Assembly (NCBI RefSeq): GCF_028747785.1
Contig: NZ_CP118158.1
Coordinates: forward strand, 3,348,001 to 3,412,000
Direction: 5' to 3'
Source of the DNA: Halosimplex aquaticum
GTDB lineage: Archaea > Halobacteriota > Halobacteria > Halobacteriales > Haloarculaceae
DNA: 64,000 nt
Shown: positions 43,548-61,129 of the stretch, in pieces
How the letters are laid out: the number at the start of each line of letters is the position of its first letter
How positions within the stretch are numbered: the stretch's first letter is position 1
The notes under the pieces: generated by a model
Databases searched by the model: none
What the model saw: the letters and a program-made list of their open reading frames with translations, nothing else
Told to the model about the DNA's origin: nothing
Position numbers and translations under genes: made by a program

Positions 43548-44551
43548 TTGGATTCACCTCGCGCTTCGATTCGCGGGTCGAGTTTCCCGTACGTCAGGTC
43601 GGCGACGAACACGCCGATGACGACGGCGATGGTGATGATCAGGAACGCGCCCATCATCACCGGGTAGTCCCGCCGGAGCGTCGAGTCCAGCAGGAGGTAG
43701 CCGACGCCGCGGTAGCTGAAGATCTGTTCGAGGATGACCGACCCGCCGAACAGGAAGCCGATCTGGATCAGCATCCCCGTGTACAGCGGGAGGATGGCGT
43801 TGCGGGCGACGTACCGGTAGGAGATCCGGAAGTCCGAGAGCCCGCGCAGGCGCGCGCCGCGGATGTAGTCCGACCCGAGGGTCTGGATGCTGTTGGCGCG
43901 CATGCTCAGCGCGATGCCGCCGAAGCCGGTCACGACGAGTGAGATGATCGGGAGCGCCCCGTGATAGAGGACGCTCTTGTAGAACGCCAGCGACCCCGGT
44001 TCGAGCCCGGAGGCGTACTTCCCGCCCTGCGGGAACACGTCCCACTGGAACGCGAAGAAGAAGATGAGCATGAACGCGAACACGTAGAACGGCGTCGAGA
44101 CGAGGAACGTGGCGACCGAGGAGGTGGCGACGTCGAAGTTGCTCCCCTCGGTGTAGGCCATCATCGCCCCGAGCAGGATGCCGATGACGTACTGGCACGC
44201 GATCGCGACCGAGAGCAGGAACACCGTCCACGGCAACACGTCCGCTAGCAGGGTCGACACCTCGACGCCCTGGATGTACGAGTAGCCCATGTTCCCCTGG
44301 AAGGTGGTGACGACGTAGTCGATATACTGCCGCCAGAGCGGCTCGTCGGGCTTGACGTTCAGGTAGAGGCGGACCTGCCGGTTGATCTCCGCGTCGGACA
44401 TCGTCGCGCCGTAGCGCTGGTAGAGCTCGGCGCGCATCCGGTCGATGGGACTGCCCGGCATCAGCCGGATCATGAAGAACGTCAGCGTGATCGTGATGTA
44501 GGTGACCAGGAACCCCATCCCGAGGCGGCGCAGGACCCACTTCCACTGCAT
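43544..44551 (-). CDS. ABC importer 2, DppB/OppB-type permease
   Basis: A 335-residue permease with the family N-terminus (LRRLGMGFLVTYITITLTFFMIRLMPGSP), a periplasmic-side loop with PLWRQYIDYV, and YIRGARLRGLSDFRISYRYVARNAILPLYTG, the EAA loop to the ATPase. Six helices predicted. Its start codon shares one base with the stop of the ATPase gene (TGATG), so the genes are translationally coupled. Confidence 0.93.
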   Translation of the reverse strand: MQWKWVLRRLGMGFLVTYITITLTFFMIRLMPGSPIDRMRAELYQRYGATMSDAEINRQVRLYLNVKPDEPLWRQYIDYVVTTFQGNMGYSYIQGVEVSTLLADVLPWTVFLLSVAIACQYVIGILLGAMMAYTEGSNFDVATSSVATFLVSTPFYVFAFMLIFFFAFQWDVFPQGGKYASGLEPGSLAFYKSVLYHGALPIISLVVTGFGGIALSMRANSIQTLGSDYIRGARLRGLSDFRISYRYVARNAILPLYTGMLIQIGFLFGGSVILEQIFSYRGVGYLLLDSTLRRDYPVMMGAFLIITIAVVIGVFVADLTYGKLDPRIEARGESK

Positions 44552-46683
44552 CAGTCGTCACCTCCCACCGTCGCCGCGTCCTCGTGGATCGGCTCGCTCT
44601 CCCAGTAGGGGTGGCCCTCGCGCTCCCGGAAGCAGGCCGCCGCGTGGTCGGGGTCCTGCAGCTCCGGTTTCATCGTCGTACAGGCTTCGCGGGCCTTCGG
44701 ACACCGCGGGTGGAACCGGCAGCCCGAAGGGGGATCGATCGGGTCCGGCACGTCGATGTCGACGATGGGCGCCTCGCCCGTCTCCTCGTCGGACTTGATG
44801 TTCGTCGTCGACCAGTGGAGCGCCTTGGTGTAGGGGTGTTTCGGGTTCTGTACGATCTCTTCGGCGGGGCCGATCTCGATGATCTCCCCGAGGTACATGA
44901 CGGCGATCCGGCCCCCAGCGCGCCCGGCCAGGTACCGGGCGTTTGTGAGGTTGTGGCTGATGAACACGTACGAGGTGTCGAACAGATCCTGGAGCGTCAG
45001 CATCTGGTCCATCATGTCGACGCGCATCGACACGTCGAGCGCGGAGACGGCCTCGTCGGCGAGGATCACGTCCGGGTTCATCAGCAGTGCGCGGATGAGC
45101 GCGACGCGCTGTTGCTCGCCGCCGCTCAGCTGGTGGGGATACCGGTCGGCGTAGTCCTCGGGTGGGGTCATCCCCGCGGCTTCGAGCATCGCGAGGACGC
45201 GCGCCTGTCGGTCCTCCTTGTCCAGATCGGGTTTCCAGCGTTTCAGCGGCACCTGCAGGATCGGGGAGACCTTGCGGTTGGGGTTGAGCGAACTCCCCGG
45301 GTCCTGGTGAATGATCTGCAGCGCGCGTCGAATCTTCCCGTAGTCGGCGTCGTTGTCGCCGCGCTTGGCGGCCCAGACGTCGTCGCCGCGGTAGTTGACC
45401 GATCCACCGGTCGGTTCCTGCAGCCCGACGGCCGTCTTGCCGAGCGTCGTCTTGCCGCAGCCGGACTCGCCGACGACGGCGACGACGTCGTTCTCGTAGA
45501 CGTCGAGGTCGACGCCGTCCACCGCCTTGACCACGTCCGGTTCGCTGAAGAAGTCGAGCAGGCCGGTGTCCTCCTCGAAGTGCACTTCGAGGTCTTCGAG
45601 CGTGACCACCGGCTCGTCGGACTGGCTGCCATCGTACACCTCCGCCGGGGCGTCGGACGCCTCTTCCTCCAGGACGAGCGGTAGTTCCCGTTCGACCTGG
45701 TCGTGGTGGTGACAGGCGACCTCCTGGTCGGGCGCGATCTGCGCCCGCGGCGGGTCGTCGGTCTGGCACTCGCTCGTCGCCAGCGGGCACCGCGGGTGGT
45801 ACGAACAGCCCTCCGGGACGTCGACGGGGTCGGGCGCCGACCCCTCGATGGACCGGAGTTCGTCGAGCGGCGTCTCCAGGTTCGGGACGCTGTTGAGCAG
45901 CGACCGCGTGTAGGGGTGTCTGGAGTTGGCCAGATCGTCGGTCGGGAACACCTCGATCACGTCGAAGGCGTACATGACCGCGATGCGGTCACAGAGGTCC
46001 TTGACCAGCGGGAGGTCGTGCGTGATGAAGAGGATCGTCAGGTCGTACTTCTCCTGCAGGTCGTCGAGCAGCGCGAGGATCGACCGCTGCATCAGCAGGT
46101 CGAGCGCCGCGGTCGGCTCGTCCATCACGAGGACGTTCGGGTCGAGGATGAGCGAAAGCGCGACGAGCGCGCGCTGTTTCATCCCGCCCGACAGCTCGTG
46201 GGGATACGTGTCCAGCACCCGTTCGGGTTCGAGGTGGAGGTCGGTCAGGAGTTCGCGGGCGTGCTCCATCCCCTCGTCGACGTCCCGGTCGTGGGCCTTC
46301 AGGGTCTCCACGAAGTGCCCGCGGATGGTCATCGTCGGGTTGAAGAAGCTCATCGCGCCCTGGAAGACCATCGCGATCTCCTCCCAGCGGAGCGCGCGGA
46401 GGTCGTCGTCGTCGAGGTCGAGGACGTCGACCTGTTCGCCGTCGGCGCGGTTGTAGGTTATCTCGCCGGAGGTCTGCCCCGGGTTGACGACCGCGTCGAG
46501 GATCGCCGAGGCGAGCATCGATTTGCCCGAACCGGACTCGCCGACGACCCCCATGATCTCCCCGCGACGGACGTCGAGTGAGACGTCGTCGAGGACGCGG
46601 GACTCTCCCCGATCCATCGAGAAGCTGACGTCTACTCCCCGCATTTCGAGTACGTTGTCGTGCGTTACCGCCTGTTGTGACAT
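44551..46683 (-). CDS. ABC importer 2, fused double ATPase (DppD-DppF type)
   Basis: A 710-residue protein with two full nucleotide-binding domains: GESGSGKS, LSGGMKQRAL and VLVMDEPTAALD in the first; GESGCGKT, LSGGEQQRV and VILADEAVSALD in the second, where the usual DEP is DEA. Both oligopeptide C-terminal cysteine clusters are of normal length (GCSYHPRCPLATSEC; GCRFHPRCPKAREAC followed by a later Cys), each expected to bind one metal cluster. It lies 132 bases after the binding-protein gene. Compared with the importer 1 ATPase it lacks the insertion in the second cluster. Confidence 0.93.
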   Translation of the reverse strand: MSQQAVTHDNVLEMRGVDVSFSMDRGESRVLDDVSLDVRRGEIMGVVGESGSGKSMLASAILDAVVNPGQTSGEITYNRADGEQVDVLDLDDDDLRALRWEEIAMVFQGAMSFFNPTMTIRGHFVETLKAHDRDVDEGMEHARELLTDLHLEPERVLDTYPHELSGGMKQRALVALSLILDPNVLVMDEPTAALDLLMQRSILALLDDLQEKYDLTILFITHDLPLVKDLCDRIAVMYAFDVIEVFPTDDLANSRHPYTRSLLNSVPNLETPLDELRSIEGSAPDPVDVPEGCSYHPRCPLATSECQTDDPPRAQIAPDQEVACHHHDQVERELPLVLEEEASDAPAEVYDGSQSDEPVVTLEDLEVHFEEDTGLLDFFSEPDVVKAVDGVDLDVYENDVVAVVGESGCGKTTLGKTAVGLQEPTGGSVNYRGDDVWAAKRGDNDADYGKIRRALQIIHQDPGSSLNPNRKVSPILQVPLKRWKPDLDKEDRQARVLAMLEAAGMTPPEDYADRYPHQLSGGEQQRVALIRALLMNPDVILADEAVSALDVSMRVDMMDQMLTLQDLFDTSYVFISHNLTNARYLAGRAGGRIAVMYLGEIIEIGPAEEIVQNPKHPYTKALHWSTTNIKSDEETGEAPIVDIDVPDPIDPPSGCRFHPRCPKAREACTTMKPELQDPDHAAACFREREGHPYWESEPIHEDAATVGGDD

Positions 46684-46815
46684 GTGTTGTAGTTCTCGTG
46701 TCGAAGCTTTATCTTTAGCGTTTAATCATGTACTACTCGGCCACCGGAGATCGGGGCTGTCGGACCCTGATTCGTCGACGTTCGTGGCGAGATGCCGTCG
46801 AGGTGAGCACGTCAC

Positions 46816-48735
46816 TCACTTCGGGCTCATCGCGGGGATCGACATGAACGACCGGTTCGTGAAGTTGATCCCCCACAGCGGGTCGTCCTTGGCCGGCCAG
46901 CTCCAGTCGGAGGTGCTGTACATCATGCCCCAGTTCTCGACGTTCGTCGGGATCGACGGCAGCGTGTAGTTGTAGATCCACGCGAGACGTTCGAGCTGCT
47001 TGGTGTACTCTTCGCCGGTGAGCTGCGCGAGGCCGTTGACTTCCTCGCGGACGTTGACTTCCTCCGTGCTCCCTTCCCAGTCGCCGACGGGCATGGGGAC
47101 CTCGACGGTGGCCGGGAAGTGGACCATGCTGTTCTCCTCGAACATCGTGCTCATGTACGACACCGGCGTCAGCGCGCTCGCGTGCGTCCGCAGCGAGTCC
47201 CAGGTGTCGTCCGAGCGGCCCCACAGGATCGAGCCGAAGTTCTCGTTGACCGAGAAGCTCGTCTCGAAGCCGAACTGGTTCAGCTGGCTCATCGTCGCCT
47301 GGCCCGTCGTCGGCCAGTGGTGGTAGTTCGGCGAGATGTGGTCGATCGTGAACGTCTCGCCGTCGTACTGCCACGTCCCGTTCTCCTTCGAGAACCCGAG
47401 GTCCTGGAGCATCGACGTCGCCTTCTCGTGGTCGACCTCGTAGGTTCGGAGCTGGTCGTGGATGTTCGGGAGCGCCTCCTCGACGTTGAAGAACACGCCG
47501 TCGGCGCGTTCGAGCGCCGTCGTCCGGGTCGGGTGGGCGCGCCCGATGCCCTCGTTGTCGAGGACGTACGCGATCGCCTGCCGGAACTTCGGATTCGCGT
47601 AGATCTCCGGGACGTCTTCGGCGCTGGTGTTCCAGTTGAGGGCGAATCCCTGGACCGCCGTCCCCGCCCGGATGACGACTTCCTTGCTGTCGTCGCTCTG
47701 GATCCGTTCGATGTGTTCGGGCTGGGGAAGCGGACCGGCCTCGATGTCGCCCGAGAGGAACGCCGAGATCGGCTGTGCGCGGCCCCCCGCCGCGTCGAAG
47801 TTCTCGATGCGACCGGAGAAGTTCACGTCGGTGTGGTACCCCTCGTTCGGGACCAGTTCCGCGACCGTCTCGGTCGAGGACGCGATCTCCCACGGCCCGC
47901 AGGTGACAGTCTCGTCGATGGGGAAGTCCTGGAACTCGGTGAGCTCCTGGTCGATCGAGTTGATCTCCTCCTCGCTGGAGGCGTCTTCGAGCCGCTGGAG
48001 GAAGGAGACGAACTCCGTCTCCTCGCCGTTGACCTCGCGGGGCGGGTTGAGGTGGAAGTCCTGCGTGAACAGCTGTTTGGCGGCGTAGTCAGTGTTCAGC
48101 TGGCCGAGTTCGATAACCGCAGTCTTCTCGCCGTCGGCGTAGATGCGGTCCATGTTCGCCCACAGGACCGTGTCGTATCCCAGCTGTTTGTTGATCTTGA
48201 GGTTTAGGACGACGTCGTCGGCGGTCACCTCGTCGCCGGAGGTCCACTGCCAGTCGTCGAACAGTTTCATCGTGATCGTCCCGCCGTCGCGGTCGATGTC
48301 GAGGGACTCGACGCCGGTCTCGATGAACTGGTTGTACGTCTGGGTCGTCTCCTTGTTGAACTCCGCCGATGTCGACCAGCGGGCGAGGTGCGGGTGGACC
48401 GCCCACGCCAGCGCGTGGTAGTTCGCCGACTGCCCCCACGGGTTCCCGATCTGGGACTGGGACTCGATCGCCCCCGGCAGGAAGGTGTGGAACTCCGGCA
48501 TGTTCCCGCCGCTGGTCCCGCCACCGTCGCCACCACCGTCTCCACCGCCCCCATCGCCACCGCCGTCGCCGCCGTCGCCGCCGCCGTTGACCGGCGTCAC
48601 GTCTTGGTCGTTCGACCCACATCCGGCGAGCATCACCGCCGTGACGCCACCGGCCCCCTGGAGCATCCGACGACGCGAGATCTTCCCACCGCTATACCAC
48701 TGGTTACCGCTGGAAGTGCCGCTATCTTTTGACAT
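46816..48735 (-). CDS. ABC importer 2, extracellular solute-binding lipoprotein (family 5)
   Basis: A 639-residue SBP_bac_5 protein. RRR (21-23), a hydrophobic run and lipobox LAGC (Cys39) show Tat export with lipid anchoring; a glycine/aspartate repeat (GGDGGGDGG, about 50-80) is a flexible linker. The mature domain includes FDDWQWTSGDEVTADDVVLN, the family site near the substrate pocket, and a C-terminal lobe with WIYNYTLPSIPTNVENWG. First gene of importer 2. The ATG at 48735 was chosen by the signal peptide; the TATA element at 48771-48778 predicts a leader of about 10-15 bases. Substrate unknown; peptide or oligosaccharide. Confidence 0.93.
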   Translation of the reverse strand: MSKDSGTSSGNQWYSGGKISRRRMLQGAGGVTAVMLAGCGSNDQDVTPVNGGGDGGDGGGDGGGGDGGGDGGGTSGGNMPEFHTFLPGAIESQSQIGNPWGQSANYHALAWAVHPHLARWSTSAEFNKETTQTYNQFIETGVESLDIDRDGGTITMKLFDDWQWTSGDEVTADDVVLNLKINKQLGYDTVLWANMDRIYADGEKTAVIELGQLNTDYAAKQLFTQDFHLNPPREVNGEETEFVSFLQRLEDASSEEEINSIDQELTEFQDFPIDETVTCGPWEIASSTETVAELVPNEGYHTDVNFSGRIENFDAAGGRAQPISAFLSGDIEAGPLPQPEHIERIQSDDSKEVVIRAGTAVQGFALNWNTSAEDVPEIYANPKFRQAIAYVLDNEGIGRAHPTRTTALERADGVFFNVEEALPNIHDQLRTYEVDHEKATSMLQDLGFSKENGTWQYDGETFTIDHISPNYHHWPTTGQATMSQLNQFGFETSFSVNENFGSILWGRSDDTWDSLRTHASALTPVSYMSTMFEENSMVHFPATVEVPMPVGDWEGSTEEVNVREEVNGLAQLTGEEYTKQLERLAWIYNYTLPSIPTNVENWGMMYSTSDWSWPAKDDPLWGINFTNRSFMSIPAMSPK

Positions 48736-48770
48736 TGCTGAACGCCTGTTCGCTCCTTTACGACCGGTGT

Positions 48771-48778
48771 ATTTATAC
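48771..48778 (-). promoter_or_regulatory. TATA element of the importer 2 operon
   Basis: On the minus strand GTATAAAT sits 36-43 bases before the binding-protein ATG at 48735, within an imperfect palindrome (plus strand GGTGTATTTATACC, 48767-48780). The remaining divergent gap to 49059 also contains CTCGCGAG (48804-48811). The palindrome over the TATA box resembles the arrangement at importer 1, but the sequences differ. Confidence 0.45.
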
Positions 48779-49028
48779 CATTTTATTATTTCATTTATAG
48801 TACTCTCGCGAGTGAATGTTCTCCAATGCAATTGCGGTTTTCGTTCTCCCGCGATCGTGAGGGTGGCATCTGCCGTCGAAATGAGTGAACTAACGGCGTA
48901 CGGACTCCTGTTTCGTCCTTACAGTCGTTCCGAGAGCCCGTCGTGCGGGAGAGTCGGTGGACCGACCGACGACTTCATCGGGGCGGTCGTTGACCGAAGC
49001 CGACCAATCCGTGACCGACGGGACGTAC

Positions 49029-49037
49029 TTTTATATA
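49029..49037 (+). promoter_or_regulatory. TATA element of the mannonate-dehydratase-like gene
   Basis: TTTTATATA (49029-49037) lies 23-31 bases before the ATG at 49060, which implies a leaderless mRNA beginning at that ATG. It argues against the in-frame GTG at 49039, which would lie upstream of the transcription start. Confidence 0.55.
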
Positions 49038-49059
49038 GGTGAATCCGGTACTGGGCCCT

Positions 49060-50121
49060 ATGACTGCGGGAAGCAGCACGTCTTCTCTCACCCTCGAAGA
49101 GCTTCCGATGCGGGTGGGGGCGGGACAGTTCATGGATCCGACGCCCGAGCGCTTGCGGTACGTGAAGCAACTCGGCGGGTCGGACGTCCTTCTGAACATG
49201 TATCAGGTCGACGATCCCGACTACGACCACATGCCCGACGACGAGCGGGTGCCGCTGTCGAGCGATGGGCCGTGGTCGGTCGAATCACTGTGCGAACTCC
49301 GCGAGCGCGTCGAGGCCGAGGGGTTGCGGCTCGCGGCCATCGAGAACGTCCCGGTCTCGTTCTACGAGGACGTGATGCTGAACGGCCCGAATCGCGACGC
49401 GCAACTCGCGGCCCTCAAAGAAACCATCCGGAACATGGGTGCGGCGGGCATCCCCATCTTCGGGTATCACTGGGCGCCGGCGGGCGTCTGGCGGACCGGG
49501 TGGGAGGAGACCCGCGGCGGCGCGGACGTCTCGGTCTTCGACGGCGACGCGATCGACACCGAGGAGTTGACCCACGACCGGGAGTACTCGGAAGCCGAAC
49601 TGTGGGCCAACTACGAGTACTTCCTCGACGAACTGCTCCCCGTGGCCGAAGAAGCGGGCGTGACGCTGGCGTTGCACCCGAGCGACCCGCCGATGGAGCG
49701 ACTGGGTGGGGTCCCCCAGCTGTTCCGGAATTTCGAGAACTTCCAGCGGGCGATGAACTATCGGGACAGCGACTATCACGGCCTGGATCTGTGTCTGGGC
49801 TGCTGGTCGGAGATGGGCGCGCCGCTCGAAGACGTGATCCGCTATTTCGGCGAGCGCGAGGAGATCGTCTACGTCCACTTCCGCGACGTGTCGGGGACCG
49901 TCCCGCGCTTCGCCGAGGACTTCATCGACCGGGGCAACTACGACGAGTACGCGCTGTTGAAACTCCTCGACGAAGTGGGGTTCTCGGGACTGATGATCCC
50001 CGACCACACGCCCCACCTCGAGGGCGACACCGACTGGGAGCACCGCGGCCGCGCGTTCACAATCGGCTACATCCGCGGCATGCTCCGGGCCATGCGAGCC
50101 GAGAGGCCGTCTGGGACGTAG
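49060..50121 (+). CDS. Mannonate dehydratase (UxuA)-family TIM-barrel enzyme
   Basis: A 353-residue TIM-barrel protein. Motifs: MRVGAGQFMDPTPERLRYVKQLG (N-terminus), GIPIFGYHWAPAGVWRTG, LALHPSDPP (His and Asp metal ligands), LCLGCWSEMG (Cys/Met region as in UxuA) and MIPDHTPH (final Asp-His). UxuA removes water from D-mannonate to give 2-keto-3-deoxygluconate in hexuronate breakdown. Residues agree with UxuA but the protein is somewhat shorter than the bacterial enzyme, so a related sugar acid is possible. The divergent importer 2 shares its control region, so a hexuronate oligomer is a candidate for that transporter. Confidence 0.8.
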   Translation: MTAGSSTSSLTLEELPMRVGAGQFMDPTPERLRYVKQLGGSDVLLNMYQVDDPDYDHMPDDERVPLSSDGPWSVESLCELRERVEAEGLRLAAIENVPVSFYEDVMLNGPNRDAQLAALKETIRNMGAAGIPIFGYHWAPAGVWRTGWEETRGGADVSVFDGDAIDTEELTHDREYSEAELWANYEYFLDELLPVAEEAGVTLALHPSDPPMERLGGVPQLFRNFENFQRAMNYRDSDYHGLDLCLGCWSEMGAPLEDVIRYFGEREEIVYVHFRDVSGTVPRFAEDFIDRGNYDEYALLKLLDEVGFSGLMIPDHTPHLEGDTDWEHRGRAFTIGYIRGMLRAMRAERPSGT

Positions 50122-51312
50122 CGACACCGGGCATCCCTTTTCGCGGTCCACTAACCGGCCGACGCTCTGCGTTTCTCTCCGACGAAGTCCGAGCGTCTGC
50201 TACGACTTTACCTCGCGCTCTGCTATTGATCCACTCATGTTGGAAACGGTGTTCTCGCGAGATATCAGGTAAAATTCTCCGGGAGAGTACCAGGGGATCC
50301 ACGAGCGCCGTCTTCGGTGAGGTGCAACACCGGGAGACGAACCGAGAGAGATTACAAACATAATCTTGCAATTTGGACCGACTGGTTCCAGCGATGATGG
50401 AAATTAGCAACACGCAGGTTCCCGGTAACCGAGTGAGGCGCAAATTTAATCCAACGGAACGCTGGCACCGACCCGATATTCTGGTGGCTACGACCGGCCT
50501 CAGACTTGGCACACCAGGCTGGTGAGCCACCACACGTCGCCCTCGACTTTGGTTTTCGACTCCGACCGACTTTCGCCGTATTCTATCGACCTTTTTACCG
50601 CCACATATTATCAGAATCAATCTAATACGACCGTTTAATAAAATTCTCTACTTTTTATTGAGGAAAGTATCTGTTTGAGAGTCTAAGAACATATCTCTGG
50701 AAGTCAAACACAGCCCAGTAGCTGATCTCGGGTACCAATAGAACAGAACGACCTCGATCTCCAGGTCGCTGCGTGAAACCAGAATAGATCGCCTGTAAAG
50801 CCTCAAAAGCCGAAGATATGCGCCTTCCCATGCAACTGTTGCGTCACTCTAAGGTGCGGCAATATGTGTCGTCACTGCCGGATAGTTTTCCGCCCGTACC
50901 GCTTCGCGTCCATCACGAAAGTCGCGGATCTCCCCTTTTAATTCCGTAATACTGCTGTTCTTCTGACTGTCCTCTCCGATCGAAGGGCTATAAGATAAAT
51001 TTCGGTGTTATATATCTATATATTATATGTCTGTTCGTTGTGGAGATTTCCCCCCACCATCGCATTATGGTCAAGCGGGGAAGACCCGGATCCCGAATCC
51101 GGTCTGGGGTATCGGGTGGATCGACAATTAAGGGAAGCGAGGTGGTGTCTGATTACAACGGGACGACGTGCAACGGCGTCCCGTCGGCGAATACTACGAA
51201 TAGTGGACTCCGACGCGGAACGCTGAACCCGGGCAGCCGAGTCACAGGACCGATCGAAGCGGCCGCTGGCGACGGGATGGCTTCCGTCGAGCGGTGCCGG
51301 GCGTCGTGCTGT
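50122..51312. other. AT-rich gene-poor stretch
   Basis: About 1.2 kb with clearly lower GC than the window, notably 50575-51040 with runs such as CCGTTTAATAAAATTC and TTATATATCTATATATTATATG. No frame on either strand reads as protein and no known RNA element is visible. It may contain a promoter of a small unseen RNA, or mark the scar of a lost element. No terminal repeats were found by eye. Confidence 0.3.
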
Positions 51313-51489
51313 TCACTCGTCGGAGTACTCGAAGTACTCGATCCGGTCGCGGTCGATCTCTTCCCACGTCCCGTCGGTCAGCTGTTCGGTCACTCGATGG
51401 ATATCGTCCTCACCCGGGAACAGGAGGATACGGAGCCGTCGCGGCGCGGTGTCGACGGGGTGGTATTCGAGTTTGAAGATCTCTTCCAT
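51313..51489 (-). CDS. Conserved haloarchaeal small acidic protein
   Basis: Fifty-eight residues starting MEEIFKLEYHPVD, strand-rich in the middle (RLRILLFPGEDDIHRVTEQL) and ending EEIDRDRIEYFEYSDE. The start at 51489 fits the first protein-like residue; an upstream ATG adds 15 less convincing residues. Isolated gene, function unknown. Confidence 0.65.
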   Translation of the reverse strand: MEEIFKLEYHPVDTAPRRLRILLFPGEDDIHRVTEQLTDGTWEEIDRDRIEYFEYSDE

Positions 51490-51711
51490 GCGAGTTCCAC
51501 CGGCCCGGCACCAGATTCTCTCTGGCAGACACAATAACGTCTGCTATTTACGGAGCGGGCGCTGGGCCTGTTCAGCGGGGGAATTCGCCGGACGGTGGAC
51601 GAATCGTCCGCCGTTTTCCCCTGGTGCGAGTCCCGGGCGCCGGCAGGCCGGTCGCGGCCGCCCTGCAGTATCCGCCCGGCCACCGATTACGCGCGGCGCC
51701 GTACCGCGGGC

Positions 51712-53271
51712 ATGCTCACGGCTGACCGGATGCGAGCCGTCGAAGCGAACGCGGTTGCGCTCGGCGTCTCGCGGAGGCAACTGGCGGAAGCGAGCGGGAG
51801 CGCCGTCGCCCGCGAGGTGCGCGGGTGCGCCGACGCGGCGGCGAGTGTCGCCGTTGTTGCCGGACGCGGAGCCAACGGCGGCGTCGCTCTCGCCGCGGCG
51901 TGACATCTCGACGAGTTCGATCCGTCGGTCGCACTGCTGGGCCGTCCGGAATCGATCGCGACCGCGACCGGGCGGGCAAACTGGGCCGCCGTCGTCGCGT
52001 CGGAACTCGACGCGCAGTCGATCGCGGACCCGCGTGCCATCGACCTCGCCGGCGCGGACGTGGTCGTCGATGGGATACTCGGCGCCGACGTCGCCGACGT
52101 GCCGGACGAACCCGAACGGACGGCGATCGAGGCGGTCGACGGCTGCGAGGCCACGGTGGTCGCCGTCGATGTCCCGTCGGGGCTGAACGGGAACACGGGC
52201 GAGACGCCGGGCGCCGCCGTCGACGCCGACCGGGTCGTCGCTTTCCACGCGAGAAAGCCCGGCCTCGACGCCGCGGCCGGCGTCACGGTCGCTGACGTCG
52301 GCGTGCCGTCGGCTGCGGAGCGATTCGCCGGTCCCGGCGACCTCCGGCCGATCCGCGGACGAATGCGGGGCGACCGCGGAGCGGACGACTCCGGGCGGAT
52401 CTTCGTGATCGGCGGTGGCCCCTACACCGGCGCCCCCGCGCTGAGCGCGCAGGCGGCGCTCGGGGGCGGCGCCGATCTGGCCTTCGTCGCGGTCCCCCAG
52501 GCGGTCGCGGACCCCGTCAGCGGGTACGCCGAGGACCTCATCGTCCAGCCGTACCCCGGAGCGCACCTGACGCCGGATCAGGTCGACGACCTGGTGCAGA
52601 CGGCGACGTCCCACGACGACGTCGTCGTCCTCGGTCCGGGACTCGGCGACGCCGACGAGACTCTGGAGGCCGTCGAGTCCTTCCTCTCGGCCTACGACGG
52701 GCGCGCGGTCGTCGACGCGGACGCCATCCCGGCGGTCCCCGCGGTCGAGACCGACGCGACGCTCGTCCTGACGCCGAACACGCACGAACTGCAAGAACTC
52801 GGCGGGCCGTCCGTCGAGGACCTCCGCGAGTCGGCCGACGAGATCGAGTCGTTCGCGGACGATCTGGGCCACGCGATCGCGGTGAAGGGCGCCGAGACGG
52901 TCGTCACGGACGGGACGGAGACTCGCGTCTCCCGCGCCGGCACCCAGGCCCTGACCGTCGGCGGGACGGGCGACGTCTTCGCCGGGGTGACCGCGGCCTT
53001 CCTGGGCGTCACCGCGCCACTCGACGCCGCCTCCGCGGCGGCCTACGTGAAAGGCCGGGCCGGCGAGCGACTCGCCGAGCGAGTCGGCCCGGGCTTCGTT
53101 GCGTCGGACCTGCTGCACGAGATATCGCCCATGATCCGGCAGGCCGGAGCGGGCCGAGACGGTGCGGGGCCGCGCGGAGGGAGCGGCGGGCCACACCGGA
53201 GCGCAGACGTGCCGCCCGCGGGCGGCGATCGGCCACCCCGAGGCGGTACGCCCCGCGGTCCGCAGCGGTGA
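51712..53271 (+). pseudogene. nnr: Bifunctional NAD(P)HX epimerase/dehydratase with in-frame TGA
   Basis: The frame encodes NnrE-like epimerase followed by NnrD-like ADP-dependent dehydratase, which repair hydrated NAD(P)H. The N-terminus MLTADRMRAVEANAVALGV is as in the family. At codon 64 (51901-51903) a TGA interrupts the helix after GRGANGGVALAAA; the canonical motif GNNGGDxLVAAR suggests Arg (CGA) there. The epimerase loop is also altered (N to A, D to V). Beyond, the rest of the frame is intact: VVAVDVPSGLN, GRIFVIGGGPYTGAPALSA, LTPNTHELQEL, VKGAETVVTDG and VGGTGDVFAGVTAAFLG. The C-terminal dehydratase may still be made by internal initiation, e.g. near 52060. The C-terminal 40 residues are Arg/Gly/Pro-rich and unusual. 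Confidence 0.8.
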
Positions 53272-53396
53272 GCGCAATGGGTCGTCCGTCGCGGTCGGCC
53301 GCTCGGCCGCTCAGCGGTGCGAACGCGCGAACCCGCCGCGGTTTCACTTCCGCTCCGTGGCGCTCACTCTTGGGCGTCCCGGCCCTACCGCGCGAC

Positions 53397-54551
53397 ATGG
53401 CTCGACGCACGAGCGCGGACCTGCCGCTACACTCCGGATCGGCGCCCTCCTGGCTGTTCGACCGGATGGTCGACCTCAGCGGCGCCATCGCCGAGGCCGT
53501 CGTCGCGGAGTACGGCCGGGAGGAGCTGCTCCGACGGCTCGCCGACCCCTACTGGTTCCAGGCGCTGGGCTGCGTCATCGGCTTCGACTGGCACTCCTCG
53601 GGCGTCACCACGACGACCATGGGCGCGCTGAAGGAGGCGCTGTCCGCCGAAGACCACGGGATCGAGATCGTCGGCGGCAAGGGCGCGACCTCCCGCGAGA
53701 CGCCCGACGAGATCGACGCCAGCCCGCTCGGCCTGCCGCCGGGGGCCCGCGACGACCTCCGGTACACCTCGCGGCTGAGCGCCACCGTCGACAACGCCTG
53801 CGTCCAGGACTCGTTCACCCTGTATCACCACACGATGGCGATCACCGAGTCGGAGTCGTGGTGCGTCGTCCAGCAGGGGATGAACGACTCGACTGCGCGG
53901 CGATACCACTGGCTCTCCGACGACGTGGACGACTTCGTCGAGGAGCCGCAGGCGGCGATCTGTTCGCAGGGCGGGGCCGACACGCTCGATCTCACCGCCG
54001 AGGCCTCGGCGGAGACGCGCGCGGCGTCCGTCGACCTCGTGCAGGACGACCCGGCCCACCTCAAGCGCGAACTCCGGGGCGAGACCTCGCTCGCCGACTT
54101 CGGCGGGGGCGCCCCGAGCGTCGACGACGGTGGGGGCGGACGGAGCGGTACGAGAGCGCTCGACCTGCTGGCCGAGGACCCGGATCTGACGATGCCCGCC
54201 CACCACGAACTCCGGGACGCCGACCTCTCCGAGCGAGCGCTCGACCAGCTGGAACGGGCCTACGAGTACCAGCCCGACAGCTACGAGGAACTCCTCGACC
54301 TCGACGGGATCGGGCCGGGGTCGATCCGGGCGCTCGCGCTGATCGCGGAACTGGTCTACGACGCCGAGAGCTCCCGCGAGGACCCGGCGAAGTACGCCTA
54401 CGCCCACGGCGGCAAGGACGGGACGCCCCAGCCCGTCGAGCGCGAGCGCTACGACCGGTCGATCGAGTACATGCGGTCGATGCTCGACGGCGCCGAACTC
54501 GACCGCGAGACGAAACAGCAGTCGCTCCAGCGCCTCGCCGAACTGGAGTGA
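53397..54551 (+). CDS. DUF763-domain protein
   Basis: A 384-residue protein of the DUF763 family, common in archaea. N-terminus from MARRTSADLPLHSGSAPSWLF is characteristic. The core includes LGCVIGFDWHSSGVTTTTMGALKEAL, EIVGGKGATSRETPDEI and a Gly-rich acidic insertion (about 245-260). Near the C-terminus DLDGIGPGSIRALALIAELVY is a helix-hairpin-helix motif, which suggests DNA or RNA binding; the overall function is not established. The ATG at 53397 matches the family start. Lies just behind the broken nnr gene on the same strand, with a 125-base gap. Confidence 0.86.
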   Translation: MARRTSADLPLHSGSAPSWLFDRMVDLSGAIAEAVVAEYGREELLRRLADPYWFQALGCVIGFDWHSSGVTTTTMGALKEALSAEDHGIEIVGGKGATSRETPDEIDASPLGLPPGARDDLRYTSRLSATVDNACVQDSFTLYHHTMAITESESWCVVQQGMNDSTARRYHWLSDDVDDFVEEPQAAICSQGGADTLDLTAEASAETRAASVDLVQDDPAHLKRELRGETSLADFGGGAPSVDDGGGGRSGTRALDLLAEDPDLTMPAHHELRDADLSERALDQLERAYEYQPDSYEELLDLDGIGPGSIRALALIAELVYDAESSREDPAKYAYAHGGKDGTPQPVERERYDRSIEYMRSMLDGAELDRETKQQSLQRLAELE

Positions 54552-54557
54552 GACGAG

Positions 54558-54938
54558 TTAGCCCGTGGCGTCGACGCGTTCGACCTCGTCGGCGACCTCG
54601 TCGAACAGGCGCTCGGCCTGCTCGTCGTCGTAGTCGGTGTGATACTCTTTGGGCACGCCCTCCTCGGCGAGGTTGACGTGGTAGTCGGGCGTGACGCCGT
54701 GGTCGTCCAGACAGGCCCGCGCGCACTCCAGCGGGCAGCCGTCGATCACGACCGCGGGTCGGCCGGACGTCGCGGTGTCGACGAGCGGGGCCACGTCCCC
54801 GCCGACGCCGGCGATGCAGGACATCTCCGCCAGGCGCTCGCGGTCGAGCCGGACGGCGATGTCGTTGGCCAGCTGGGCCGCGCTCGAACAGCCCGAACAG
54901 GAGTACACGAGCGGCAGGTCGTCGTAGTCGGCGGTCAT
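54558..54938 (-). CDS. DGC-domain putative zinc-binding protein
   Basis: A 126-residue protein with the DGC (PF08859) features: YSCSGCSSAAQLANDIAV, MSCIAGVGGD and VIDGCPLECARACLDDHGV. The conserved cysteines (about six) suggest a metal or thiol site. Convergent with DUF763 (6 bases between stops). Members are associated with sulphur or metal metabolism in some bacteria, but the reaction is unknown. Confidence 0.85.
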   Translation of the reverse strand: MTADYDDLPLVYSCSGCSSAAQLANDIAVRLDRERLAEMSCIAGVGGDVAPLVDTATSGRPAVVIDGCPLECARACLDDHGVTPDYHVNLAEEGVPKEYHTDYDDEQAERLFDEVADEVERVDATG

Positions 54939-55094
54939 CGGCCCACTCTACCGCGCCTTCCGCGGAAGGGGTTGCCCCGAACGTCGTTCGCCTCCGTGCC
55001 CGGATCCCGACGGCGGGGCCCCGCAGACACTCGCGACCGGACGAAGGTATTCGCACGAATCCCTTCGGCGGTCGCGGTCGTCGGTCCCGACGCA

Positions 55095-55328
55095 ATGGCC
55101 GAACAGCAACTCGATCTGCGCGAGGTGCCGCCGCCGGAACGCCACCCGAAGATATTCGAGGCCTTCGAGGCGCTGGAGAGCGGCGAGGCGCTGGCGATCG
55201 TCAACGACCACGAACCGACGCCGCTGTACCACCAGATGGCCGCGGAAGTCGAGTCGTTCGACGCCGAGGGGTACACCGTCGACCGCGTCGGTCCGAACGA
55301 GTTCATCGCGACTCTACCGAAGAAGTAG
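55095..55328 (+). CDS. DUF2249-domain protein
   Basis: Seventy-seven residues; pattern LDLREVPPPERHPKIFEAFEALESGEALAIVNDHEPTPLYHQMAAEV is the DUF2249 (PF10006) signature: a sulphur-carrier-like TusA-type fold with REVPPPERH and DHEPTPL. It occurs next to nitric-oxide and redox genes in other organisms. Here it is divergent from the DGC protein, with about 156 bases between them. Start at MAEQQL (55095). Confidence 0.88.
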   Translation: MAEQQLDLREVPPPERHPKIFEAFEALESGEALAIVNDHEPTPLYHQMAAEVESFDAEGYTVDRVGPNEFIATLPKK

Positions 55329-55426
55329 CGGGCCGGCGACGTGACCGATCCCGCCCGCGACGAGCGGCCGCGAGCGGTCTCTCGGCACCGCGTGATTTTA
55401 TACCGACCCTGCCGAGAGAACGGACG

Positions 55427-56308
55427 ATGACGCTCTCGACGATCGCGGTGACCGGCGGCAATGGGAAGATCGGGCGGGCGATCCTCGGGGACCTCTCGGA
55501 TCACGGCTACGAGACGGTGAACGTCTCGCGCGGGAAACGGCGCGAGGACGTCTCGGACGCGTACGTCACGACGGACCTCCTGGACGCGGGGGAGACCTAC
55601 GGGGCGCTCGCGACGGCGGACGCCGACGCCGTCGTCCACATGGGGACCATCCCGAACCCGGACGGCAACCCGCAGTACCGGACCTACGAGAGCAACACGA
55701 TGTCGGCGATGCACGTCCTGGAAGCCAGCGAGGCCCTCGGACTGGAGTCGTGCTGTCTCGCCTCCAGCATCAACGCGATGGGCGCCGAGCACCAGCAGCG
55801 GCCGCCGCAGGTCGAGTACCTCCCGGTCGACGAGGCCCACCCCCGGACGCCCGACGACGTCTACGGCGTCGCCAAGCACGCGATGGAAGTGACGGCCGAC
55901 GGGTTCGGTCGCCGGCCCGACTCCGACCTGACGATCGCCACGCTGCGGTACCCGTGGGTGCCGAACGAGGAGGAACTCGTCGAGAGCTTCGTCGAGCCCG
56001 ACCGCTCGCTGGAGGCGCTTGCCGACGACCCCTGGAGCGGGCGCGACGTGCTGTTCTCGTACCTCCACCTCGACGACGCGGCGGTCGTCGCGCGCAAGGC
56101 CGTCGAGGCCGACTACGACGGTCACGAGTCCTTCTGGACGGTCGCCGCCGACACCACCGCCGACGCTCCGACCGCGCGACTCGCCGACGAGTGCTTCCCC
56201 GAGGCCGAGCGCCGGAGGGACCTGGAGGGCCACGAGGCGCTGTTCGACCTCTCGAAGGCCGAGGCCCTCCTCGACTGGAGGCCCGAACGGAGCTGGCGCG
56301 ACTACTGA
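55427..56308 (+). CDS. NAD-dependent epimerase/dehydratase (extended SDR)
   Basis: A 293-residue short-chain dehydrogenase with AVTGGNGKIGRAIL (nucleotide loop, residues about 6-19), Ser/Ala-rich SSINAMGAE, and YGVAKHAME (Tyr-x3-Lys catalytic pair at about residues 146-150). HLDDAAVVARKAVE is the substrate-site helix typical of UDP-sugar or uronate dehydrogenase relatives. Fits sugar-nucleotide epimerase/uronate dehydrogenase; which one is not decidable. A TATA-like ATTTTATACC is at about 55393-55402, about 25 bases before the ATG, so likely leaderless. Confidence 0.88.
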   Translation: MTLSTIAVTGGNGKIGRAILGDLSDHGYETVNVSRGKRREDVSDAYVTTDLLDAGETYGALATADADAVVHMGTIPNPDGNPQYRTYESNTMSAMHVLEASEALGLESCCLASSINAMGAEHQQRPPQVEYLPVDEAHPRTPDDVYGVAKHAMEVTADGFGRRPDSDLTIATLRYPWVPNEEELVESFVEPDRSLEALADDPWSGRDVLFSYLHLDDAAVVARKAVEADYDGHESFWTVAADTTADAPTARLADECFPEAERRRDLEGHEALFDLSKAEALLDWRPERSWRDY

Positions 56309-56495
56309 ACTCTCGGATGGGCCGCGTCAAGAGACGATCGGTCCACCGGGTCAGGTTCCGGATGGCCCCCACCAGCGGTTCTCCCGGCTGCCGGGTCGCA
56401 GGCGTCGTCGACGGCGATGGGGATCGAGCGCGTCGCCGGCCGTGGCTCGATAGAACCAAGTGGTCCGGGGGCCTGCGTGCGAGACAGAGCTACGA

Positions 56496-56996
56496 ATGGA
56501 GATCTCCGATCAACTTCGCTGTCTCTTCTCCGCACAGGTAGAGGAACGAGACGGATCGTACGTCGTCGAGGTGCCGAAGCGGGAGGTCCGACGCGGCGGG
56601 ATCGAATCCGACGAGACGTATCGCGTGGCGCTGGTCCCGTCGCCGGCAACGAACGAGCGCGAGCAGCGGCAGACGAACGGAACTCGGTCCTCTGGCTCGG
56701 ACTCGTCACAGTCGTCGAACGGGGACCGGGCGAGCGGGAGCGGCGACGCCGACGAGTCGACGAACGGGAGCCGAGACCGCGGCCGGCAGCGACCGCCGGT
56801 CGAGGAGGGCGAGTCCCGTCGCGTCGAGATCGAGGACATCGGCGAACAGGGCGACGGCATCACGCGCGTCGAGCGGGGGTTCGTCGTCATCGTCCCCGAC
56901 ACCGAACAGGGCGAGCGCGTCGAGGTCGAGATCACCGACGTTCGGGAGAACGTCGCCTTCGCCGAAGTCGTCGAGCGCCTGAGCTACTACGAGTGA
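56496..56996 (+). CDS. TRAM-domain protein
   Basis: A 166-residue protein with a C-terminal TRAM domain: VEIEDIGEQGDGITRVERGFVVIVPDTEQGERVEVEITDVRENVAFAEVV, the RNA-binding beta-barrel. It has a long Ser/Asn/Gly/Asp-rich disordered middle (about 50-100) and an N-terminal strand-helix region (SDQLRCLFSAQVEERDGSYVVEVPKRE). Single TRAM proteins act as RNA chaperones in archaea, where several copies exist. Start from ATG at 56496. Confidence 0.88.
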   Translation: MEISDQLRCLFSAQVEERDGSYVVEVPKREVRRGGIESDETYRVALVPSPATNEREQRQTNGTRSSGSDSSQSSNGDRASGSGDADESTNGSRDRGRQRPPVEEGESRRVEIEDIGEQGDGITRVERGFVVIVPDTEQGERVEVEITDVRENVAFAEVVERLSYYE

Positions 56997-57097
56997 GGCC
57001 CGGCTTCGGGGTCGCGTCGGCAGTGTTTCGCCAGTCGCTGACCGCCGGACAGAACGCTTAACCGAACCCGTATCGCACGTCCGGAACAGAACCACCC

Positions 57098-58252
57098 GTG
57101 ACGACGATCACCGACTACGAACTGTTCGAGGTACCGCCGCGCTGGCTCTTCCTGAAAGTCGAGACGAGCGACGGAACCGTCGGCTGGGGCGAGCCCGTCG
57201 TCGAGGGCCGCTCGAAGACCGTCGAGACGGCCGTCGAGGAGCTGATGGACAACTACCTGCTCGGCGAGGACCCCGCGGACATCGCGGACCACTGGCAGGC
57301 GATGTACCGCGGCGGCTTCTACCGCGGCGGCCCCGTCCTGATGAGCGCCATCGCCGGCATCGACCAGGCGCTGTGGGACATCAAGGGCAAGCACTTCGGC
57401 GCGCCCGTCTACGAACTCCTCGGCGGGAAGGCACGCGACCGCGTCCGCGTCTACCAGTGGATCGGCGGCGACCGACCCGCCGACGTGGGCGACGCCGCCG
57501 AGGAGCGCGTCGAGCAGGGGCTCACGGCGCTGAAGATGAACGCCACGCCGGAACTGCGCCGCGTCGACAACCCCGCGGCGGTCGAGGCGGCCGTCGACCG
57601 CGTCCGGACGGTCCGCGAGCGCGTCGGCGACGAGGTGGACATCGGGCTGGACTTCCACGGCCGCGTCGCCAAGTCGATGGCCAAGCGCATCGCCGAGGCC
57701 GTCGAGCCCTACGAGCCGATGTTCGTCGAGGAGCCCGTCTTGCCGGAGAACAACGACGCCCTCCCCCACGTCGCGAACCACACCACCACGCCCATCGCCA
57801 CCGGCGAGCGGATGTACTCCCGCTGGGACTTCAAGGAGGTCTTCGAGCAGGGGGTCGTCGACGTCATCCAGCCCGACCTCTCTCACGCCGGCGGGATCAC
57901 CGAGGTCTCGAAGATCGCGGCGATGGCCGAAGCCTACGACGTGGCGCTGGCGCCGCACTGCCCGCTCGGTCCCATCGCCCTCGCGTCGTGCTTCCAGGTC
58001 GACGCGAACGCGCCGAACGCGCTCATCCAGGAGCAGAGCCTCGGTATCCACTACAACGAGGGGACCGACGAACTGGCCTACCTCGCGGACCCGTCGGTGT
58101 TCGAGTACGAGGACGGCGCCGTCGCCGTCCCCGACGGTCCGGGACTCGGCATCGAGATCGACGAGGACTACGTGCGCGAAGCGGCCGAAGAAGATGTCAA
58201 CTGGCACAACCCGGTCTGGCGCCACGACGACGGCGGCGTCGCCGAGTGGTGA
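57098..58252 (+). CDS. dgoD: D-galactonate dehydratase (enolase superfamily)
   Basis: This 384-residue enolase-superfamily enzyme has the family N-terminus (TDYELFEVPPRWLFLKVET) and TALKMN. The predicted metal ligands are Asp185 (with His187 in DFHGR), Glu211 (in FVEEPV) and Glu237 (in TGERM), and the catalytic His287 (in APHCPLGP). The spacings 185-211-237-287 equal those remembered for E. coli DgoD (183-209-235-285), so D-galactonate dehydration to 2-keto-3-deoxygalactonate is a strong guess; related sugar acids (e.g. gluconate or arabinonate) remain possible. GTG start at 57098. The nearest downstream genes on the other strand are LutAB-like. Confidence 0.9.
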   Translation: MTTITDYELFEVPPRWLFLKVETSDGTVGWGEPVVEGRSKTVETAVEELMDNYLLGEDPADIADHWQAMYRGGFYRGGPVLMSAIAGIDQALWDIKGKHFGAPVYELLGGKARDRVRVYQWIGGDRPADVGDAAEERVEQGLTALKMNATPELRRVDNPAAVEAAVDRVRTVRERVGDEVDIGLDFHGRVAKSMAKRIAEAVEPYEPMFVEEPVLPENNDALPHVANHTTTPIATGERMYSRWDFKEVFEQGVVDVIQPDLSHAGGITEVSKIAAMAEAYDVALAPHCPLGPIALASCFQVDANAPNALIQEQSLGIHYNEGTDELAYLADPSVFEYEDGAVAVPDGPGLGIEIDEDYVREAAEEDVNWHNPVWRHDDGGVAEW

Positions 58253-58903
58253 GCGGCCGCTGCTCGGTCTGAGGAAGTGTGGTTTTCGCGGCGTGAAAGC
58301 GGGCGAGCCGCCCCGAACGTGAAATCAGTGACAGTGACAGAGTGGGATCGGGCGGGGCGGTGCCGTGGCAAGATGGGGCCCGTCTGGCACGAGCCATCTG
58401 ATCAGAGGGCCTGCAACGGCATAGCTGTCCGGCCTCAAATCTTAGGCCCGGGTGAACCGGTTCAGTTCCAGCGGGACGAAGGGGTGTTCCCCGCTCGGAA
58501 ACTCCATGGTGATAGTAACCTAATATGCTTGGTATGAGTGAGTATACGTCTGGAAAGAACAATGAGACCGGCTCGATCGTCGCTGTTGCCGATCGCTCTC
58601 TGGTCAAAACTCGCTGACGACGATACGGGTGTTCTAATCCGCAAATACCGCGTTGCAGATCAGGTCCGCCCATGGCCGGCAGGACCACAAGCGTTACTCT
58701 CTCCTGGTGGTGAAGTTTGTTCGCGAATCAGCGGCGTTTAGGCTTCTTCGCGGATTTCTACTCTGATTCTGGGCTGTGTTCGGTGCCGCTGGCTGGTTCG
58801 AGTCTGTCGCGGCGACGATACGAAATATAATTTCCCGATCAGTGTATGGGAGATGTCTAATCTGCGTGTTCGAAAGCGTCGACTCCTCGGCGGAGACCGG
58901 GGA
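58253..58903. other. Intergenic stretch with possible relic
   Basis: About 650 bases. A short frame from ATG at 58533 encodes MSEYTSGKNNETGSIVAVADR and then ends after 26 codons with TGA, so it could be a truncated gene start. No promoter element was certain, and no RNA or repeat was recognised. Confidence 0.25.
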
Positions 58904-61129
58904 TTATCGGCCGCGCCTCGGGTCGAGGAGCTCGATGGGGTGTGCCGGCTCGCGGGCGAGGAGCGCGTCGATCTGTTCGAGGCAGGAGGTGCCGCTCGCG
59001 ACGGGGATCCGGTCGTCGTTTCCGGGCGCTTCGAGTTGCTCGCCGAGTTGCTCGCCGACGTCCATACTGATCTCGTAGTAGTCGGTCTTGTAGCCGAAGC
59101 TTCCGGCCATCCCGCAACACTCCACGTCGGTGGTCGTCACGTCGTAGCCCAGCCGTTCGAGGACGGCGACGGTGTGCGATTCCAGCCCGAGCGTCCGCTG
59201 CTGGCAGTGGCTGTGGTAGACGACGCCCGGTCCGTCGGCGTCCGGGCCGGTCAGGAGGGCCTCGTCTGCACCTTCCTGGGTCAGGAGGCCGTAGACGTAC
59301 TCCAGGACCTCGTAGCTGTTCGCCGAGACCGTCTCCAGCGCGTCGTCGTCCTCGGGGAGGAGCTTCTCGTACTCGCGGTCGATCATCGCGAGGTCGCTCG
59401 GTTCGACGACGACCACGTCGTAGCCGTCGGTGACGTATTCCGAGAGCGAGTCGATCACGTCTTCGGCGTGGTCGGTCGCCGTTCGGACCATGCCCTGCGA
59501 GAAGGGTGCGCGGCCGCTGGCGCGCACGTCGGGGACGGACACGTCGCAGCCCAGCGCTTCCAGCGTGCGGACGGTCGCCTTTCCGCGCTCGGTGAGGACG
59601 TGGTTCGTGTAGAGGTCGGGGTAGACGACGACCTTCCGGCCGTCGGCGGATGCGCTGATACCGCTCGTCCGCGTTTCGGCCCACTCGCGGAACGTCTCCC
59701 GGCGGAAGGTCGGGAGGTCGCGGCGGCGGTCGACGCCGAGCACGCGCTCCATCGCCCAGCGGCTCGGCCCCGCGTCGGCCAGCCAGTTCGACAGCGGCGC
59801 GGTCGCGCTCCCGAGCTTCGCCGCCGTCTCGAAGTTCCCGAAGAAGCGCTTGCCGAGCGGCGGGCTCGCGTCGTCCTCGGCGTCGGGCGTCAGACCGTCG
59901 ACGAGCGGGTCGAAGTTCCCCTCGTCGGCGCCCCGGTTGACCCGGTCGCGGACGACCGTGTTGATCCACGGGATGTCGATGCCGACCGGACAGGCGTTCA
60001 CGCAGCGCGTACACCCGGTGCACAGATCGTTGAACTCCGCCGCGACGTCCTCGCCCTCGATTCCGGCTTCCCAGCCCGTCGCGATGCCGCCCGAGTACGT
60101 CTCGCCGCCGAAGGCGTGGCCGCCGACGCTCTGGAAGTTGGCACAGCTGTTCGAACAGGCCGAACACCGGATGCAGTAGAGCGTCTCGCGCAGCTGATCG
60201 TCGTCGCGCATGTCGAGGCGGCCGTTGTCGACGAGCACGAGGTGGAAGTCGCGGTCCGCGTCGAGTTCCGAGAGGGGCGTCTCGTCGTCGCCGAAGTCGA
60301 CGGTGGGCGTGTCGACCGGCGGGGTGAACAGCGAGATGTAGGAGGTGATGTCCTGTCCGGTGCCCGAGCGGCCGATGAGTTCGACGAAGGGAGCGAAGTC
60401 GCTCACCGAGGGGACGATCTTCTCGACGCCGGCGACGGCGACGTGCGTGTCCGTCGCGGCGACGGACTTGCGGGCGTTGCCCTCGCTCGTCACGAGCGCC
60501 ATCGTCCCCGACTCGGCGGCGATGAAGTTCGCACCGGTCATGCCGACGTCGGCGTCCTCGATCAGTTCGCCGAGGTGCTCGCGGGCGAACTGGGTGAGTT
60601 CCTCGGCGGTCTCCAGCGGTGGGTCGGGGTCGAAGCGCTCGTTGAGCAGGTCGGCGATGCCCTCGCGGGACTTGTGGATGGCCGGCGCGACGATGTGGCT
60701 CGGGGCCTCGTCCGCGACCTGCAGAACCCACTCGCCGAGGTCGGTCTCGACCACGTCGACGCCGTCGGCTTCCAGCGCCTCGTTGACCTCCAGTTCCTCG
60801 GTGGTCATCGACTTGCTCTTGACCACCCGCTCGGCGTCCTCGTCGGCGACGACCTCTCTGATGTACTCGTTTGCGTCCGCGGCGTCGTCGGCGACGTAGA
60901 CCGTCCCGCCGTTGTCCTCGACGGTCTCGCGGAGCTGTTCGACGAGTTCGGGGAGGCGCTCGATGGCGTCTTCCTTGATCGCGCGGGCCTGTTCTTTGAG
61001 TTCCTCGTAGTCGTCGAGCCTGGCGACCGACTCGTAGCGGCCGTCGTTGAACGCCGTCGTGTTGGCGCGGACGGCGGCCCCCTCGGTGTCCATGAGCCGG
61101 CGGTAGTCGTCTTTCTTCGCCACGGTCAC
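58904..61129 (-). CDS. LutA-LutB-like fused (S)-hydroxy-acid oxidation protein: LUD, 4Fe-4S and CCG domains
   Basis: A 741-residue protein. N-terminal LUD (DUF162-type) domain, about 60-290, includes VKSKSMTTEELEVNEALEADG. Two ferredoxin-type clusters: CIRCSACSNSCANF and CTGCTRCVNACPVGI (about residues 310-385). C-terminal Cys-rich CCG regions: HSHCQQRTLG and VECCGMAGSFGY, as in GlcF/LutA. It thus combines LutB and LutA in one chain and should transfer electrons in L-lactate or glycolate oxidation. Its GTG start overlaps the stop of the LutC-like gene by two bases (GTGA), hence coupled translation. It lacks an FAD-binding oxidase, so a separate dehydrogenase or direct action as in LutABC is possible. 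Confidence 0.86.
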   Translation of the reverse strand: MTVAKKDDYRRLMDTEGAAVRANTTAFNDGRYESVARLDDYEELKEQARAIKEDAIERLPELVEQLRETVEDNGGTVYVADDAADANEYIREVVADEDAERVVKSKSMTTEELEVNEALEADGVDVVETDLGEWVLQVADEAPSHIVAPAIHKSREGIADLLNERFDPDPPLETAEELTQFAREHLGELIEDADVGMTGANFIAAESGTMALVTSEGNARKSVAATDTHVAVAGVEKIVPSVSDFAPFVELIGRSGTGQDITSYISLFTPPVDTPTVDFGDDETPLSELDADRDFHLVLVDNGRLDMRDDDQLRETLYCIRCSACSNSCANFQSVGGHAFGGETYSGGIATGWEAGIEGEDVAAEFNDLCTGCTRCVNACPVGIDIPWINTVVRDRVNRGADEGNFDPLVDGLTPDAEDDASPPLGKRFFGNFETAAKLGSATAPLSNWLADAGPSRWAMERVLGVDRRRDLPTFRRETFREWAETRTSGISASADGRKVVVYPDLYTNHVLTERGKATVRTLEALGCDVSVPDVRASGRAPFSQGMVRTATDHAEDVIDSLSEYVTDGYDVVVVEPSDLAMIDREYEKLLPEDDDALETVSANSYEVLEYVYGLLTQEGADEALLTGPDADGPGVVYHSHCQQRTLGLESHTVAVLERLGYDVTTTDVECCGMAGSFGYKTDYYEISMDVGEQLGEQLEAPGNDDRIPVASGTSCLEQIDALLAREPAHPIELLDPRRGR

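Follow-up and report, generated by a model that had tools for sequence, protein, structure and literature searches.

In a survey of more than 1,600 prokaryote genomes, the genes for NAD(P)HX epimerase and NAD(P)HX dehydratase were both present in 1,248, being fused in 97% of these, and the dehydratase occurred alone in 168. The fused form, Nnr, is represented by YjeF of E. coli and TM0922 of T. maritima (PDB 2AX3), and the standalone ADP/ATP-dependent dehydratase, NnrD, by YxkO of B. subtilis (PDB 3RPH). The epimers of NAD(P)HX convert into each other spontaneously, the half-time being 40 minutes. Given this interconversion and the 168 genomes with the dehydratase alone, a dehydratase that lacks a functional epimerase partner is neither novel nor unexpected.

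The window, a stretch of 64,000 nucleotides from the Halosimplex aquaticum genome (5.16 Mb in 3 contigs), contains an extra nnr gene, referred to below as the window copy. This gene is an additional member of a known family in partial decay, a minor but cleanly documented case.

The interrupted nnr copy

The window copy, an NnrE-NnrD fusion gene with one internal TGA, was located at 51712..53271 on the forward strand, to which its parts described below also belong. Its end coordinate takes in a C-terminal extension of about 40 residues (53146..53271) that was absent from the aligned relatives. After translation, the TGA at 51901..51903 (codon 64) was the sole internal stop, and the rest of the frame was open. 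Residues 23-184 matched Pfam YjeF_N (NAD(P)H-hydrate epimerase; E 4.8e-28), residues 231-471 matched Pfam Carb_kinase (NAD(P)H-hydrate dehydratase; E 2.9e-40), and the stretch after the TGA still matched YjeF_N by itself (E 2.8e-17). Both Pfam matches thus belong to one YjeF_N and Carb_kinase protein, in agreement with a preliminary description of this DNA, in which the frame was called protein-like on both sides of the stop.

The window copy was compared with Nnr (YjeF, TM0922). The two domains and their order were shared, and residues 17-476 aligned with TM0922, but the window copy differed by the stop at codon 64, by the replacement of the GNNGGD loop with GANGGV and by the loss of roughly one in four of the residues conserved in the epimerase. 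The YjeF_N and Carb_kinase domains, which characterize Nnr when present in one open frame, were both recognizable, but TGA 51901 interrupted the frame that joins them. Judging from its sequence, the window copy is a derived, broken member of Nnr by descent.

The column of the stop was invariably occupied by Arg in the 47 aligned intact homologs (CGC in 28, CGG in 14 and CGA in 5), and TM0922 also had Arg there. An Arg codon at this site had been expected in the preliminary description, with C-to-T as the change. Since CGA alone among the Arg codons seen is one step from TGA, this change from CGA was indeed the simplest route to the stop. No internal stop was found in any nnr homolog among the matches listed.

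Unequal decay of the two halves

The epimerase (YjeF_N) half comprises codons 1-211 (51712..52344). Alignment with relatives demonstrated that the GNNGGD loop had changed to GANGGV (N54A and D58V; 51868..51885), as was noted earlier, and that the VDVPSG motif (52165..52182) and the KPG motif with Lys182 (52255..52263) were kept. In E. coli YjeF, replacement of K192 with Ala abolished at least 95% of the epimerase activity (PMC5938422); judging by the motif, Lys182 of the window copy should be the equivalent residue. GNNGGD is the nucleotide-binding loop, and two of its residues have been lost in the window copy. With GANGGV in place of this loop and 24 of 85 invariant residues lost, the half departs from the signature of YjeF_N, and its epimerase activity has probably been lost.

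Invariant columns were defined across 19 relatives of the clade to which the window copy belongs. Of these columns, 85 lie in the epimerase half and 81 in the dehydratase half; the window copy has lost 24 of the former and 6 of the latter (Fisher p = 5e-4), and each clade relative lost 0-5 such residues per half. A codon model with three site classes was then fitted to eight sequences, for each half separately and for two control genes. With silent sites saturated and branch lengths at or near their bound, the effect sizes from this model are rough: selection was relaxed in the epimerase half (k 0.55, LRT 29.8; neutral-tail LRT 21.3), not relaxed in the dehydratase half (k 1.04, LRT 0.05) and little or not at all relaxed in the control genes (LRT <=5.3). 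For the epimerase half, relaxed selection was a better fit than full neutrality. GC3 was 0.85 in the epimerase half versus 0.93 in the dehydratase half. It had been proposed that the epimerase was already failing when the stop arose, and decay extending well beyond the loop, as seen in both the residue losses and the k value, supported this view.

Several results bear on the size and the boundary of this difference. The excess of change was strongest in codons 1-160 and faded before the domain border, and codons 361-476 showed a weak, non-significant excess. A permutation test for one change-point in the conserved-column losses gave p = 0.07, which is suggestive only. Under tighter branch bounds the dehydratase half was also mildly relaxed (k 0.79), an effect that was gone with looser bounds. 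A branch model with one omega excluded omega = 1 over the entire branch for either half; saturation of the silent sites kept it from telling the halves apart, and models with site classes were therefore used instead. Taken as a pattern in the sequence, the asymmetric decay, with the epimerase half worse than the dehydratase half, is real.

The dehydratase (Carb_kinase) domain occupies codons 231-471 (52402..53124) and covers profile positions 2-240 of 242. The GGGPYTGAP, GPGLG, DADA and VGGTGD motifs (the last at 52957..52974) were all kept, so the domain is complete and retains the signature of Carb_kinase/NnrD, and the earlier statement that this half retains its motifs was confirmed. The residues lost from it include R251G, D396T, M414L, L423F and N447K, and in the tree of this half the branch of the window copy was long (0.49 versus at most 0.38 in the other tips). 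If made alone, the second half of the window copy would match the standalone NnrD (YxkO), from which it differs in being the remnant of a fusion with only a candidate start.

Across the order, two variants of the nnr dehydratase half were observed: TPHQGE, which occurs in Halosimplex's own copy among others, and TPN..E, which occurs in the window copy and its relatives.

Other copies in the genome and origin of the window copy

The search for a separate intact copy, which the preliminary description had recommended, was successful. A bifunctional ortholog, 55% identical and with no stops, was found in the same genome at G000:C1:637168-638583, and its NNGGD and REP motifs were complete. Its neighbour is a moaC-like gene. 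In addition, a standalone dehydratase gene, likewise intact and encoding 261 residues, was found at about C1:4769252-4769983. Because an intact fusion is present elsewhere in the genome, the epimerase function of the cell is not missing, and the suggestion that the cell might have lost this activity did not hold. The combination of a dead epimerase and a live dehydratase had also been considered unusual; the 168 surveyed genomes and the standalone gene found here speak against this.

Within the family, genomes were seen that carry the fusion together with an extra standalone dehydratase gene (G000:C1:4769252, G001, G003, G004 and G113) or, in others, with extra standalone epimerase genes (G005, G007, G029, G031 and G034).

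The other seven Halosimplex genomes contained no second full-length nnr copy; they had the ordinary copy and, in some cases, standalone single-domain genes. The sequences closest to the window copy were nnr genes of Halomarina (L033-L035) and of other families (L004 and L043), with 60-62% identity over the full length. These genes are intact, whereas the window copy is long-branched and its epimerase half decayed. In the tree, it grouped with these relatives, apart from the Halosimplex copies, and had the longest terminal branch (0.63). An intact DUF763 gene (53397-54548) that adjoins the window copy had no counterpart in the seven other Halosimplex genomes; elsewhere in the family, it occurred in just four genomes. 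The genes around the window copy matched scattered places across the genus. The simplest and most likely reading of these comparisons is that the gene was acquired laterally from another haloarchaeal lineage; an old duplication that was lost in the other Halosimplex lineages is a possible alternative.

Explanations for the interrupted gene

The window copy is probably a redundant nnr gene, itself likely acquired, in which the epimerase half was failing before the nonsense mutation and the dehydratase half was retained. According to this explanation, an extra nnr fusion would have entered from another haloarchaeal lineage. Since the resident intact nnr already provided epimerisation, constraint on the epimerase half of the newcomer would have weakened, and a large number of conserved residues, among them two in the GNNGGD loop, would consequently have been lost, with ordinary purifying selection persisting on the dehydratase half over the same branch. 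A later C-to-T change, probably recent, would then have placed the stop in the half that was already failing.

Because relaxation fitted better than neutrality and no indels relative to close relatives were found in the 211 codons of the epimerase half, this half was probably translated most of the time. The single stop, the lasting constraint on the dehydratase half and the relaxed rather than neutral fit together suggest long translation through a failing epimerase domain and then a recent stop, and we infer that decay preceded the stop. Against this explanation stand the rough effect sizes of the codon model, the centring of the excess on codons 1-160, short of the domain border, the change-point p of 0.07 and the fact that the dehydratase half also lies on a long branch and has lost residues. 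As to the present state of the gene, it is about equally likely that the dehydratase is still made, for example from an internal start at ATG 52363, and that the whole gene is dead.

That the window copy is a plain new pseudogene, in which the stop put an end to the protein and the dehydratase half has simply not yet had time to decay, has somewhat less than an even chance of being correct. The redundancy of the gene beside two intact ones, the lack of a detected downstream start signal, the loss of the original stop with a low-complexity tail and the loss of a few conserved dehydratase residues are consistent with it, but by itself it leaves the prior decay of the epimerase half alone unexplained; for that, the dehydratase would have to have been useful over a long period beforehand.

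It may also be proposed, tentatively, that the truncated gene now acts as a standalone dehydratase gene, translated from an internal start, most likely ATG 52363..52365 (codon 218), into a protein of 302 residues with the complete domain. This codon is the only in-frame ATG between the stop and the dehydratase domain and lies 13 codons before the domain; the frame that starts from it holds the whole Carb_kinase domain (E 9.5e-41, profile positions 2-240 of 242), and Met was found at its position in none of the seven relatives aligned with the window copy. The lack of relaxation in the dehydratase half and the existence of standalone dehydratases, including one in the same genome, are in line with such a product, and internal in-frame translation has been reported for a haloarchaeal Cas gene (PMC11899642). 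However, no TATA-like or Shine-Dalgarno-like element was found in the 35 bases upstream of ATG 52363, the first drop in constraint ended near codon 160 rather than 218, and two other dehydratase genes are already present in the genome. If this proposal were correct, a fusion gene might have been caught in the course of conversion to a single-domain gene, with a working dehydratase made by internal initiation and the epimerase half rotting upstream, a picture that deserves the same caution.

A base-call or assembly error, in which case the protein would be full-length, its epimerase domain degenerate and its dehydratase functional, is unlikely. Only a single base is at issue, and the frame is otherwise open and free of frameshifts; however, the stop falls in a half that decayed independently, the other 23 lost residues would remain unexplained, the genome is assembled in 3 contigs, and nearby genes read open. 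Readthrough or recoding of the stop, yielding a full-length enzyme, is very improbable: the frame is open on either side of the TGA, but the completed domain would be without its loop residues, the intact homologs have Arg codons only, and an Rfam search of 44000-60000 revealed no RNA element (no tRNA was found in the window either). The absence of NAD(P)HX epimerase from the whole cell was rejected at the sequence level, since the intact copy at C1:637168-638583 has complete motifs and nothing beyond the window locus supports such a loss.

The preferred explanation, that of a redundant copy decaying first in its epimerase half, agrees with the view in the literature that cells can to some extent do without NAD(P)HX epimerase but not without the dehydratase: either half of such a copy could have been lost, and the epimerase half was the one that decayed. 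It concerns one case in one genome, and the predicted repair capacity of the cell is unchanged.

Two further irregular nnr genes were encountered. In the draft genome of Halostagnicola sp. A56 (L115, 2000-3800), nnr seems to be frameshifted in its epimerase half, which may mean another broken gene or an artefact of the assembly. At G069:C31:52013-52757, the dehydratase half is apparently split over two reading frames, possibly by a frameshift.
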